Below are positions 5,568 through 18,504 of a stretch of 29,984 nt of DNA, piece by piece. Below the pieces are notes generated by a model. That model ran no database searches, was not told the origin of the DNA, and worked only from the letters and a program-made list of their open reading frames with translations. This stretch comes from a virus. The translations under genes were made by a program, and so were the position numbers. Position 1 is the first letter of the stretch. The number at the start of each line of letters is the position of its first letter. The stretch covers positions 1 through 29,984 of the IMG/VR virus record IMGVR_UViG_3300025769_000562, one strand, 5' to 3'.

Positions 5568-5773
5568 GCGACGGCGACCCATTACCACCGTGCCCGTATT
5601 GCGGCGTAATGCCGGAAATTGAGATGCTGCATCCGCAGGCGCCTCTATACATTGTGCGCTGTGAGCCGTGCGGCATTGAGTTTCAGGGGGAGCGCAGCAA
5701 GCGCGTGTACCGTGAGTGGGAGGATAACTACAAAGAGGTTAAGCGCAGAGAGTTCGACGATTATGCCGACTAA
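5564..5773 (+). CDS. Lar-like zinc-ribbon protein
   Basis: A 69-aa protein with CPYCG near residues 10-14 and CEPCG near 33-37, four Cys that can hold one zinc, followed by a YREWEDNYKE segment. This matches the layout of the small Lar-type (restriction-alleviation) zinc-ribbon proteins common in phages, where two CxxC pairs precede a conserved Trp. In the original Lar the role is to modulate a type I restriction enzyme, but most phage members have no tested function. The start overlaps the previous stop (ATGA) behind GGAGG (5549-5553). It overlaps the terminase start by 11 bp. Confidence 0.55.
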   Translation: MSDGDPLPPCPYCGVMPEIEMLHPQAPLYIVRCEPCGIEFQGERSKRVYREWEDNYKEVKRREFDDYAD

Positions 5774-8700
5774 AAACGATGACGACAGCGGTATTTTTAA
5801 CTTACCGAAGGCCGAGGAGGAGATAGGCGACGGTGCGGTATGGTTTCCGCAGGATGGGCCGCAAGCTGACGCGATACAAGCGACGTGGTGTACTGAGTTG
5901 CTCTACGGCGGTGCTCGGGGTGGGGGGAAAGGTTTAAGGCCGCATGAGCGCGTACAGACGCCTCTAGGGGGTCTTCCGATATCTGCGCTTAAGGTAGGGG
6001 ACGAGGTTGCGCATCCGAGCGGTAAGGCGACTAAGGTTATTGGCGTGTATCCGCGTAGTGAACAAGTGTTTTATAAAATACAGTTTTGCGATGGGTCGCA
6101 TATTGAGTGTGACGAGGATCATATCTGGAAAGTGCGCTACAGCGACAAAAATGGAGTACTTGGTCGCTGGCAGCTTATTACAACGAAGCTTTTAGTTGAG
6201 CGTTTTCCCACGCATGAGGGGAAAACGTTTATTCCAGCGATAAAACCGGTTCAGCACACGCTTTCTTTGCGCGTTCATGCGAATATTAAGATAAAACCGT
6301 ATTTGATGGGCGTTTTGCTCGGTTGCAAGCTTCTGCGCTCCGATTTGTTGCGTTTAAACGTTAGCCAGGAGCTGTGCGACAGTATTGAGCGGCATTTACC
6401 TGAGGGGGACACGCTAAAACGCCATTCGTGGGGCGGCGAAATTGTTGGTGGCGCTACCAGGCAGGCGCTTATCGATTTAGGGATAAACGACTTGCTCGTA
6501 CAGGACAAATACGTACCCTACGTGTACGAAATGGGGTCGATAGCGGACAGGCGCGACCTTTTAGCGGGGTTTTTGGACGCTGGGGCGACGTTTATAGATA
6601 ACGCTGTTTACTTTTTAACGAAATGCGAGAAAATAGCGGTTTGCGCTCAGCGTATTGCGTGGTCACTTGGCATCTATAGCAGAATATCGGGGCGTGACCA
6701 CGACGGCATGATAAAAACGTACAACGTTAGCTTAGTTCACGGGGAGCGCGATTTACCGTTTAAGCTCGCTACTAAAAAGACGTTATATAATCGTTTACCC
6801 AACACAGCGTTTAGGACGAAGGAGCGCCAAATAACAGCTATAACGAAGGCGAAAGCCGGGAAAAGCGTGTGTATCAAGGTATCGCATCCTGACGGGATGT
6901 TTGTCGCCGGAAAAAGCTACGTAGCAACGCATAATACGGACTACCTGCTTGGCGACTGGCTGCAAGACGTCGATAAGTACGGCGAAGCGTGGCAGGGTAT
7001 TTTTATCCGCCGCACATATGACGACCTACGGCACGCAATTAAGCGCTCACAGCAGATTTTTGGCGCAACCGGCGACTGTATGTATAAGGTGACCGCAAAA
7101 GAGTGGCAGTGGGAGAACGGCGCAACGTTACGCTTCGTTTATCTCGACTCATCGCAGGACGCCAGTCGTTTTCAGGGACATGAATTTGTCTGGATAGCGT
7201 TCGATGAGATTGGCCAGTGGAGCGATGACGCTGGATACTTAATGCTCACCGCGTGTCTGCGGTCATCTCACGACGTACCGACCAAGCGTATACGAGCGAC
7301 TGCCAACCCTGGCGGCCCTGGCCACCACTGGGTAAAAGCGCGTTTTATTGACTACGCTCCAGACGGGTATAAGCCGTTTGACGACCCCGAAACGAACATT
7401 ACGCGGATGTTTATTCCGTCTAAAGTCAGCGATAATAAAATACTGTTAGAAAAAGACCCCGATTACGCTGACCGGCTAAAGGGGGTAGGGTCGCCCGAGC
7501 TTGTGCGCGCTTGGCTCGAAGGCGACTGGACAGCGATAACGGGCGCGTATTTTAGTGAGTTCTCGACTAAGCGGCACGTTAGGCGGCCTTTTAAGATTCC
7601 GCCGCACTGGCTTAAGTTTCGCGCGTTCGATTGGGGTTCAGCGGCCCCGTTTGCGTGCCTGTGGTTCGCTGTAAGCGACGGAACGATAGAGGGGCTAGGC
7701 AAGGGCACGCTTGTTGTTTACCGTGAGTGGTACGGCGCTAGCGGCCCAAATAAGGGCCTACGGATGCGCCAGGAGGATGTAGCGCGCGGCATTATAGAGC
7801 GCGAGGAGCGAGGTGAGATTATAACGTATTCGGTTGCCGACCCTGCGATGTTTAAGGAGGAAGGCGGCCCAAGTATAGCGGAGGTATTTTATCGTGAAGG
7901 GGTTAATTTTCGCCGTGCTGATAACGCTCGGATTGTGGGTTGGAATAATATTCGGTCTCGCCTTATCGGCGATGATGATGGGTATCCTGGGCTAGTTTTC
8001 TTTTCAACGTGTACAAACTGCATTAGAACGGTCCCGGCGCTTCAGCACGACTTAAAGAAGCAAGAGGATATCGACACCACCGGTGATGACCACTGCTTTG
8101 CGGCTGGGACGCTAGTTGCGACAATTGACGGAGACATCCCGATAGAGCAGCTAACGGAGGGGTACGTCAAGAGCCGCCATGGCGATTATACCTATTTTTT
8201 CAATGGCCGAAGGACGCGGGAAGCCGCTGACGTAGTTAAGGTCACTTACAGCGATGGGACATGCGTAGTATGCACGCCCGATCATCAGTTTTTAACCCGT
8301 GACGGATGGGTGAAAGCGGTCAATCTATCCGGCACCATTAGTAGCGAGAATAGAACATGGACCCCACAATTGTTACAAAAAGCATACAAGAGTTTAACGG
8401 CCTGCGTTATTACAAATGCGGCAAGTACTTCAGCCGACAAACGAAGCGTAAAAAGGGGAGCACGCGGTTACATAGGGTTGTGTGGGAATATCATAACGGG
8501 CCAATTCCTGAAGGCATGGAAATCCACCATAAAGACCATAACAGAAACAATAATAGCCTTAACAATCTTGAACTACTCTCTACGACTGCACACCGCAAAT
8601 ACCACCGCAAGCTACGCGGTAGGACAGAGTTTAGTGAGGGAGCGCGAGAGGAGGCCGCAAAATGGCATAGGAGCGAAGCCGGGAGAGCGTGGCATAGGGA

Positions 8701-9113
8701 GCATGTCCGGAAAAATTGCGGGAAATTCTTGGATAACGTTTCTATTAAGAACGTCGAAAAAGAGTGCCAGCAATGCGGCAAGCCTTACTATACCACTAAG
8801 TTTGCGTCGAGTTTTAGCAAGTATTGTCACCCGAATTGCAAAGCAAAAGCGTTGCGTAAGCGTCGAAAGGCTGAAAGAGAAGCAAGATGTTTACTGCATA
8901 ACAGTACCGAGGGATGAAGCGTTCACCCTTTCTATTGGCGTAGTCGTGCATAATTGCGGCGATAGCCTCAGATATGGGTGCATGTCGCGCCCATACACCA
9001 AGCGCGCTGAAAATATTGCTTCCTCACAAGCTATTAAAGTGGTAAAACCTACACTTAACGACGTCATTCGCGCGAACAATAAAGTAAGCAAACCAACGTA
9101 TAATTTGATATAG
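5763..9113 (+). CDS. terL: Terminase large subunit precursor with two inteins
   Basis: The 1116-codon frame encodes a packaging motor interrupted by two inteins (residues 57-391 and 778-1064); removing both gives about 494 aa, normal for this family. The spliced Walker A reads GGARGGGK-T, followed by DYLLGDW. Walker B is VWIAFDE (Asp481-Glu482), and NPGGPGHHWV is the coupling motif. The nuclease domain shows FDWG (Asp623), VADP (Asp693) and, rejoined after intein 2, DH-CGDSLRYG (Asp1067). ATPase and DNA-cutting activities therefore both depend on splicing. The start ATG at 5763 lies inside the upstream gene and lacks a clear ribosome site, suggesting translational coupling; the open frame to 5619 is not used. 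The portal gene follows after 2 bases. Note the additional HNH frame inside intein 2. Confidence 0.9.
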   Translation: MPTKNDDDSGIFNLPKAEEEIGDGAVWFPQDGPQADAIQATWCTELLYGGARGGGKGLRPHERVQTPLGGLPISALKVGDEVAHPSGKATKVIGVYPRSEQVFYKIQFCDGSHIECDEDHIWKVRYSDKNGVLGRWQLITTKLLVERFPTHEGKTFIPAIKPVQHTLSLRVHANIKIKPYLMGVLLGCKLLRSDLLRLNVSQELCDSIERHLPEGDTLKRHSWGGEIVGGATRQALIDLGINDLLVQDKYVPYVYEMGSIADRRDLLAGFLDAGATFIDNAVYFLTKCEKIAVCAQRIAWSLGIYSRISGRDHDGMIKTYNVSLVHGERDLPFKLATKKTLYNRLPNTAFRTKERQITAITKAKAGKSVCIKVSHPDGMFVAGKSYVATHNTDYLLGDWLQDVDKYGEAWQGIFIRRTYDDLRHAIKRSQQIFGATGDCMYKVTAKEWQWENGATLRFVYLDSSQDASRFQGHEFVWIAFDEIGQWSDDAGYLMLTACLRSSHDVPTKRIRATANPGGPGHHWVKARFIDYAPDGYKPFDDPETNITRMFIPSKVSDNKILLEKDPDYADRLKGVGSPELVRAWLEGDWTAITGAYFSEFSTKRHVRRPFKIPPHWLKFRAFDWGSAAPFACLWFAVSDGTIEGLGKGTLVVYREWYGASGPNKGLRMRQEDVARGIIEREERGEIITYSVADPAMFKEEGGPSIAEVFYREGVNFRRADNARIVGWNNIRSRLIGDDDGYPGLVFFSTCTNCIRTVPALQHDLKKQEDIDTTGDDHCFAAGTLVATIDGDIPIEQLTEGYVKSRHGDYTYFFNGRRTREAADVVKVTYSDGTCVVCTPDHQFLTRDGWVKAVNLSGTISSENRTWTPQLLQKAYKSLTACVITNAASTSADKRSVKRGARGYIGLCGNIITGQFLKAWKSTIKTITETIIALTILNYSLRLHTANTTASYAVGQSLVRERERRPQNGIGAKPGERGIGSMSGKIAGNSWITFLLRTSKKSASNAASLTIPLSLRRVLASIVTRIAKQKRCVSVERLKEKQDVYCITVPRDEAFTLSIGVVVHNCGDSLRYGCMSRPYTKRAENIASSQAIKVVKPTLNDVIRANNKVSKPTYNLI
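5931..6935 (+). mobile_element. Intein 1 in TerL Walker A, class 3 type
   Basis: A 335-aa intein lies between Lys and Thr of the P-loop. It begins GLRPHERVQTP...LKVGDEV, a block A pattern with Gly instead of the usual Cys/Ser. It ends in VATHN before an extein Thr. Trp122 (DHIW, after block B His120), Cys370 (block F, SVCIKV) and Thr389 (before His390-Asn391) match the W-C-T set that defines class 3 inteins, in which the block F Cys starts splicing. The central domain resembles LAGLIDADG endonucleases, but the eighth position of each motif is Cys188 and Gly274 rather than Asp/Glu. Base composition is more T-rich than the flanking terminase sequence. Confidence 0.85.
8094..8954 (+). mobile_element. 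Intein 2 in TerL nuclease motif, class 1, with nested HNH ORF
   Basis: A 287-aa intein begins CFAAGTLVATIDG (Cys778), has block B TPDHQF (His841), block F DVYCITV (Asp1042) and ends VVVHN before Cys1065. These are standard class 1 features. It splits DH|CGDSLRYG in the nuclease active site. Between the splicing blocks the intein frame encodes a Ser/Thr/Lys/Arg-rich stretch with no recognisable domain, while another frame of the same DNA encodes an HNH endonuclease (8357-8917). The splicing part alone (before about 8350 and after about 8880) is the size of a mini-intein. Confidence 0.85.
8357..8917 (+). CDS. HNH homing endonuclease nested out of frame in intein 2
   Basis: This 186-aa ORF lies entirely inside the TerL frame, in the -1 frame relative to it. 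Residues 10-25 (IQEFNGLRYYKCGKYF) and 38-79 (LHRVVWEYHNGPIPEG...HHKDHNRNNN...LNNLELLS...H) are a clear HNH domain of the kind found in free-standing phage and intron endonucleases, with His57/His58 and Asn64-66. A basic middle part and a C-x2-C...C-x3-C zinc-ribbon-like end (CQQCGKPYY..., KYCHPNC) follow. A TAG at 8351-8353 closes its frame just upstream, so it needs its own start, the ATG at 8357; the ribosome site is weak (GAGAA). It ends at TGA 8915-8917. Homing endonucleases cut intein-less alleles to spread the element. Confidence 0.8.
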   Translation: MDPTIVTKSIQEFNGLRYYKCGKYFSRQTKRKKGSTRLHRVVWEYHNGPIPEGMEIHHKDHNRNNNSLNNLELLSTTAHRKYHRKLRGRTEFSEGAREEAAKWHRSEAGRAWHREHVRKNCGKFLDNVSIKNVEKECQQCGKPYYTTKFASSFSKYCHPNCKAKALRKRRKAEREARCLLHNSTEG

Positions 9114-18054: not shown

Positions 18055-18504
18055 ATGCTTTTAATAGAAAGATTTATGTCAAAAGTTCTTGTCGATTCTA
18101 CGGGGTGCCATGAGTGGCAATCTACGAAAAGTCGGCAAGGCTATGGCAAATTCTGGTTTGAAGGCAAGCAAGTACCAGCTCATAGAATGGCATATATGAT
18201 ATTTGAAGGGGCAATCCCTGATGGGTTGATTATATGTCATCACTGCGACAATCCAGGGTGTGTCAATCCCGAGCACCTTTATGCAGGGACTCATAAAGAT
18301 AACTTCAACGATATGCTAAAGAGGTTTAGACATTGGGGGAGAAGGAAGTTGAGTGATGAGCAAGTACTTGAGATATTAGAACTGATCGAACAGGGAGCAT
18401 ATAGCCAGAGACGTATAGGTGAAATGTACAATGTTAGTCAGATTACGATATCACGAATCAAACTAAAAAAAAGGCATTACTTAAAAGCACTAAAAATAAA
18501 ATAA
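18055..18504 (+). CDS. Free-standing HNH endonuclease
   Basis: This 149-aa protein starts MLLIERFMSKVLVDSTGCHEW, the typical start of HNH_3-type homing nucleases, with AHRMAY (near 42-47) and a HHCDNPGCVNPEHLYAGTHKDN metal/active-site block (near 62-83). A C-terminal helix-turn-helix (LSDEQVLEILELIEQ...RRIGEMYNVSQITISRIK) probably provides DNA specificity. It is inserted between coat and decoration genes. Its codons are visibly more AT-rich than the neighbours and its ribosome site is weak, both signs of transfer. It may cut related phages in the head-gene region. Confidence 0.85.
   Translation: MLLIERFMSKVLVDSTGCHEWQSTKSRQGYGKFWFEGKQVPAHRMAYMIFEGAIPDGLIICHHCDNPGCVNPEHLYAGTHKDNFNDMLKRFRHWGRRKLSDEQVLEILELIEQGAYSQRRIGEMYNVSQITISRIKLKKRHYLKALKIK

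Follow-up and report, generated by a model that had tools for sequence, protein, structure and literature searches.

A probable mobile intein of new layout: a phage terminase intein enclosing an out-of-frame HNH endonuclease gene

Canonical mobile inteins such as PI-SceI possess a Hint domain with the signature C1...HN/C (here and below, a slash marks a junction of intein and host sequence) and carry a homing endonuclease between the two splice halves. Here we describe an intein which shares these properties, but whose endonuclease is a separate out-of-frame gene and whose protein linker is predicted to be disordered. It interrupts the terminase large subunit (TerL) encoded by the IMG/VR virus record IMGVR_UViG_3300025769_000562; the whole analysed stretch of 29,984 bases is called the window in the following. 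Judged from its sequence, the element is very probably a mobile intein of a new layout, in which TerL would be spliced in one frame and a separate HNH homing endonuclease would be made from the other.

Several described systems resemble parts of this arrangement. In the "fractured genes" which Dassa et al. reportedly described in 2009, a free endonuclease gene lies between the halves of split inteins; ten split relatives of the window intein likewise have a free-standing endonuclease gene between the N-terminal (IntN) and the C-terminal (IntC) intein half, whereas the window intein is one chain, the reading frame of which passes through the HNH gene uninterrupted. A splicing element is also combined with a separately translated homing gene in group I introns that carry HNH or GIY-YIG genes (I-HmuI, I-TevI), and the fold of the window HNH protein is closest to I-HmuI; in the window, however, splicing is predicted to take place at the protein level, and no intron RNA was found there. 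Phages PhiSTP1, CL2, SN1, and FBPa53 encode a homologous, free-standing HNH protein next to terL, but outside any intein. The ShiLan domain and the Pacc40 gp60 insert are cases of an out-of-frame HNH in phage methylases, without a splicing domain (Arsenault et al. 2025, PMC11855218). As in the window, the ShiLan HNH lies in another frame within a host gene whose own frame stays open, its distribution is patchy, and free-standing HNH relatives occur beside the host gene. In contrast, splicing blocks are missing from the ShiLan insert, which presumably stays in the protein, whereas the host frame of the window is a real intein in TerL and the TerL layout is widespread, occurs in two registers and is accompanied by split forms. 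The literature covered contained no description of an intein that splices and has its endonuclease out of frame; what we report is a new intein variant, and priority is neither settled nor claimed. An initial annotation of the window had stated that no such case was known; this holds for splicing inteins in the literature covered, but the published ShiLan case is a related out-of-frame HNH.

The terminase intein and its nested HNH gene

The features of the locus are as follows:

5619 to 9113, plus strand: open reading frame (ORF) of the terminase large subunit (Terminase_6N; PHROG terminase large subunit), interrupted by two inteins
8094 to 8954, plus strand: intein 2, 287 residues, within the TerL nuclease motif DDH/C.D..RY, with C1 ... 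TPDH ... VVHN/C
8094 to 8348, plus strand: N-terminal splicing half, residues 1-85; predicted local distance difference test (pLDDT) of AlphaFold about 94-98; Foldseek matches to mini-inteins
8351 to 8353, plus strand: TAG, closes the HNH frame upstream
8357 to 8917, plus strand: out-of-frame HNH endonuclease gene, 186 amino acids, ATG start, TGA stop at 8915-8917
8358 to 8840, plus strand: dual-coding stretch; in the intein frame it has no stop and is for the most part predicted to be a disordered linker
8468 to 8593, plus strand: HNH_3 catalytic domain (Pfam), residues 38-79
8765 to 8839, plus strand: zinc-ribbon-like cysteine pairs C137/C140/C157/C161, invariant in two family alignments (A1, A4)
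8841 to 8954, plus strand: C-terminal splicing half, residues 250-287; AlphaFold pLDDT 94-98
8961 to 8975, plus strand: codons D-S-L-R-Y of the target motif in the 3' extein, adjoining intein 2; putative homing site region

According to the initial annotation, the intein frame is open throughout and has valid splicing blocks at both ends, and our results agree: the stretch 8094-8954 contains no stop in the TerL frame, and its translation matches Pfam Intein_splicing at 2.5e-10, starts with CFAAGT, has TPDH in block B and ends with VVHN/C. In an alignment of 32 inteins, the splice-block residues C1, T61/H64, V285, H286, and N287 were invariant or nearly so. The window thus shows the hallmarks of a class 1 intein, namely an N-terminal cysteine, TxxH, and a C-terminal HN followed by C, S or T; in addition, the frame is continuous with the host gene, and relatives possess a clean empty allele. 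AlphaFold predicted a Hint fold, the halves of which were matched by Foldseek to solved mini-inteins. The pLDDT values of residues 87-210 are nearly all below 50; the middle of intein 2 is therefore predicted to be a disordered linker joining two well-folded Hint halves. As IntN and IntC lie in one contiguous ORF, the window element is not a split intein, and it differs from a canonical endonuclease-containing intein in that the HNH sits in the -1 frame and is not fused in frame. The splicing blocks distinguish it from a ShiLan-type non-splicing insert, in which they are absent. A group I or group II intron was rejected as an alternative, because Rfam gave no match to such an intron at gathering score in the window, and in 15 loci first classed as free or otherwise arranged the Rfam intron search matched nothing except a tRNA.

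The HNH gene is read in the -1 frame relative to intein 2. It had been described as encoding a full HNH domain and a zinc-ribbon-like tail between the ATG at 8357 and a TGA, with a TAG closing its frame upstream; the TAG is present at the given position, and the 186-residue product matches HNH_3 at 2.7e-18 and ends in a CxxC...CxxxC tail. The third plus-strand frame contains 22 stops across the HNH domain. The AlphaFold model of the HNH protein has a mean pLDDT of 92, and its best fold match is I-HmuI. As in HNH homing endonucleases, the catalytic motif is intact and the gene is under selection.

Distribution of the layout and constraint on the two frames

A query of viral contigs with the HNH protein gave 36 loci; an HNH profile search added loci from viral contigs and from bacterial or archaeal genome contigs, which brought the total to 145, or 104 non-redundant loci after the removal of near-copies. 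In 125 of the 145 loci, HNH lies inside a longer open frame that is out of register with it, in 114 as in the window and in 11 in the opposite register; in 20 it is free or otherwise arranged, and in none of these HNH-query loci was it classed as nested in frame. Among the non-redundant loci, 77 share the nested register of the window, 9 are nested in the other one, and 18 are not nested; a database search for TerL inteins with an HNH gene in another frame, which the initial annotation had proposed as a check, is thus positive in 86 of 104 cases. The frames around HNH encode large terminase subunits that belong to several families and contain Hint domains. A separate scan used as query only the DNA of the intein/terL junction (V-H-N/C-x-D-A-x-R-Y), without HNH sequence, and gave 80 loci. 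The 65 non-redundant ones comprise 50 nested HNH inteins, 7 cases with HNH between two intein half-genes, and 8 without an HNH match, which are 5 mini-inteins and 3 contig ends.

Because about 100 distinct homologous loci nest HNH out of frame alike, the arrangement is not a local indel or base-call artefact; to judge from these contigs, the nested layout is a real and widespread gene arrangement. The same loci bear out the earlier view that HNH is not an in-frame endonuclease lost by a single frameshift, and they exclude the base-call errors that had been considered a possible refutation. Homologues with an interrupted intein frame had been considered another: the frame is uninterrupted in 125 of 145 loci, but broken in a minority, in which the intein halves are separate ORFs. 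The nested layout was also seen in the GenBank phages LS06-2018-MD07 (L039, OP947163.1) and Highwayman (L040, OZ038341.1), the annotation of which gives only terL and misses the HNH gene.

When the synonymous codons of the window HNH were shuffled, the intein frame stayed open in 0.5% of the shuffles, or in 0.27% when terL codon usage was applied. Family-wide, the chance of open frames corresponds to a log10 P of about -110 for the 77 non-redundant +1 loci and of about -34 for the 9 loci of the other register, if the loci are independent. Chance opening is a modest improbability at one locus and an overwhelming one across the family. For the loci nested in the +1 and the +2 frame, the mean number of stops expected from shuffling is 2.1 and 10.2, respectively, and none was observed in any of them; in the 18 non-nested loci, the observed stops equal the expected ones (4.7 vs 5.0; 13.1 vs 13.4). 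In 16 close +1 pairs, the HNH-nonsynonymous rate was 0.13-0.18 of the HNH-synonymous rate, replacements in the intein frame were as frequent as intein-silent changes, and HNH-silent changes creating a stop in the intein frame numbered 0 vs 9.8 expected. These substitution classes and stop counts indicate that the HNH protein is the constrained one: its frame is under strong purifying selection, and the intein frame across the overlap is merely kept stop-free. The AlphaFold models (HNH 92, intein middle below 50) agree with this result. Of the about 560 bp that had been regarded as dual-coding, both frames are indeed open, but coding is unequal, as the codon-level comparison among homologues finds conservation in the HNH frame and only the avoidance of stops in the intein frame.

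Insertion site, split relatives and other elements of the window

The insertion site is the TerL nuclease motif D-H-x-x-D-x-x-R-Y, which is interrupted at several nearby positions: D..RY begins 2, 1, 5, -1, and -2 codons past the junction in 43, 20, 6, 2, and 3 loci, respectively. In 67 of 80 TerL relatives of the window the site is uninterrupted; L146 (58% identical), for example, has AEDHAGDETRYACMSRPW, compared with GDDH/intein/CGDSLRYGCMSR in the window. By this comparison, intein 2 is a clean insertion. That the insertion lies at the D..RY motif and that the element occurs patchily are indirect signs of the putative cleavage target of HNH and of homing.

Nested inteins contain a DNA look-alike of the terL codons D-x-x-R-Y, located 14-118 bases upstream of HNH. 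It exceeds 12 bits in 34 of 83 loci (about 40%; e.g. L111, L115, L136, L140, L046, and L077) vs 3 of 644 control windows in terL, and occurs in varying reading frames and at two different places in the Hint gene. The look-alike is closer to the host's own exon than to the exons of other hosts (0 of 5000 permutations were as high, also when GC-matched). The motif had no match in five mini-inteins without HNH, and the window intein has no strong copy; in several free-standing HNH relatives just downstream of terL, the motif is found at -62 to -137. I-TevI represses itself by binding a site. The look-alike is possibly a trace of the entry of HNH into inteins, or a putative binding site for self-repression by HNH.

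In ten relatives (L078, L084, L117, L129, L235, L258, L260, L261, L265, and L280) the TerL intein is split: a TerL-IntN ORF, which stops past the HNH start, is followed by the HNH gene and by an ORF consisting of IntC and the TerL C-terminus. These ten are candidate new trans-splicing pairs. L133 has one stop right behind HNH. In L097, the intein is split and HNH lies on the opposite strand, inverted relative to the TerL-IntN ORF; in L126 and L132, HNH is flanked by two versions of the terL 3' end, which looks like a cassette bringing along its own copy of the end of the host gene. In L302, which stems from the junction scan, the HNH frame continues in frame into IntC and the TerL-IntN frame closes right after HNH; this is possibly one indel, or a partial split or intermediate form. 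L141 was excluded as a split case, as its Hint region looks frameshifted. The PHROG family phrog_28563 (98 positions, unknown function) matches IntC and the TerL C-terminus of the window and probably represents the small protein encoded by the C-terminal part of split TerL inteins. Since the split relatives carry an HNH of the same family between the IntN and IntC ORFs, the nested layout is a plausible step towards split inteins. In a tree of the HNH domain, the architectures (two nested registers, split, free-standing, and with a second terL 3' end) are mixed, with weak support; 6 register changes were counted, which is a rough figure, as most deep forks are weakly supported and repeated origin is not proven.

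Tentatively, a wider scenario may be put forward as one joint claim, which we regard as possible, though at less than even chances. Overprinted HNH inteins might be the predominant type of mobile intein at the TerL nuclease motif, and they might be one source from which split inteins arise in nature: a free-standing HNH cutting terL at D-x-x-R-Y would have invaded the intein gene at a look-alike of its target, in any register; where the intein frame stayed open, nested inteins would have resulted, and where a stop arose, trans-splicing by split halves would have come to the rescue. Today, the look-alike might in addition bind HNH for self-repression.

The TerL frame of the window can start with the TTG at 5619, the first in-frame start, or, likelier, with the ATG at 5763. 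Its intein 1 (5931-6935) follows the Walker A motif GGARGGGK, begins with GLRPHERVQTP, that is, with no cysteine at its start, and ends with ATHN/T; it has apparent degenerate LAGLIDADG motifs and is possibly a non-class-1 intein. A free-standing HNH_3 endonuclease with a C-terminal helix-turn-helix is encoded at 18055-18504, immediately behind the gene of the major head protein.

Proposed mechanism and alternative explanations

Shine-Dalgarno matches of at least 5 precede 26% of the nested HNH starts vs 7% of other out-of-frame ATGs (P 8e-7), and matches of at least 6 precede 13% vs 1.5% (P 9e-7); the enrichment is weak in a rank test (P 0.026) and clear at strong sites. Examples are GGAGG in L002, AAGGAGG in L077, and GAGGAGGTG in L111. 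HNH is likely to be expressed independently of the intein. In the mechanism we propose, translation of the terL mRNA in one frame would give TerL containing a Hint domain, with a long disordered linker between the two halves of this domain; the domain would excise itself, and TerL would be ligated. The DNA of the linker, read in the other frame from an internal start codon, would give the complete HNH homing endonuclease, which would cut empty terL genes at the conserved codons of the nuclease motif (D-x-x-R-Y), and repair would copy intein and endonuclease together into the cut terL.

Other explanations have to be weighed against this mechanism. It is hardly credible that an in-frame endonuclease intein was broken by sequencing or by a recent natural indel: the window is a single-contig virus record and L302 does show HNH in frame into the C-terminal intein half, but independent contigs from many samples share the out-of-frame nesting in two registers, in-frame nesting is missing among the 145 loci, HNH is bounded by stops at both ends and has its own start codons, and selection keeps the intein frame stop-free. 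The element could also have ceased to splice and be tolerated by TerL, in the way suggested for the methylase with a ShiLan domain. The ShiLan insert, which is without splicing motifs, is thought to be retained (PMC11855218), and splicing of the window intein is a prediction from its sequence; nevertheless, this explanation is very improbable, as the splice-block residues are (nearly) invariant in 32 inteins and also kept in the separate ORFs of the split relatives, the Hint fold is confidently predicted, and the insert interrupts an essential TerL nuclease motif.

Two further alternatives concern the HNH protein. Ribosomal frameshifting might produce it as an IntN-HNH fusion without internal initiation, which would fit the overlap of the TerL and HNH frames, offset by one, and the presence of ACAAAAAGC near the HNH start. 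We consider this quite improbable: the HNH frame of the window has a stop immediately before the start, and most relatives also have one upstream, a start codon is present and has a good Shine-Dalgarno sequence in a quarter of the loci, and the fusion would be without the C-terminal splice half. For a programmed frameshift to HNH, only a poor slippery match was found, and this candidate was dropped. Rather unlikely, too, is a role of HNH as cofactor of the terminase in DNA packaging instead of in homing; nesting would then only couple its expression to terL. HNH genes often adjoin terminase genes, free-standing relatives are found here as well, and HNH proteins were reported as packaging components, according to the passages of PMC12613952 that cite Kala et al. 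2014. However, HNH is tied to an intein at one site, where many relatives are empty, its nested, split, free-standing and second-terL-3'-end forms are mixed on the weakly supported HNH tree, and the closest structure is that of the homing enzyme I-HmuI.

Four points weigh against the proposed mobile intein with a separately made endonuclease. The loci are phylogenetically related, so that the combined probabilities overstate their independence; the codons used in the window do not favour either frame, and codon usage was dropped as an uninformative judge between them; the target specificity of HNH is deduced from position only; and the HNH start of the window has a weak Shine-Dalgarno sequence, as have many relatives, which possess A-rich leaders instead.

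The layout would be a stable answer to the conflict inherent in mobile inteins: splicing and mobility are placed on the same DNA, but in different proteins, so that a change in either function need not impair the other. Phage contigs commonly contain the layout, but annotators have missed it. Moreover, the origin of split inteins is debated, and the layout suggests one route to them that can be tested; the split relatives themselves are new candidate tools for trans-splicing. As overlapping genes on the same strand, the nested loci also make up a large natural collection in which constraint acts on one frame, and the second is required only to stay free of stops.

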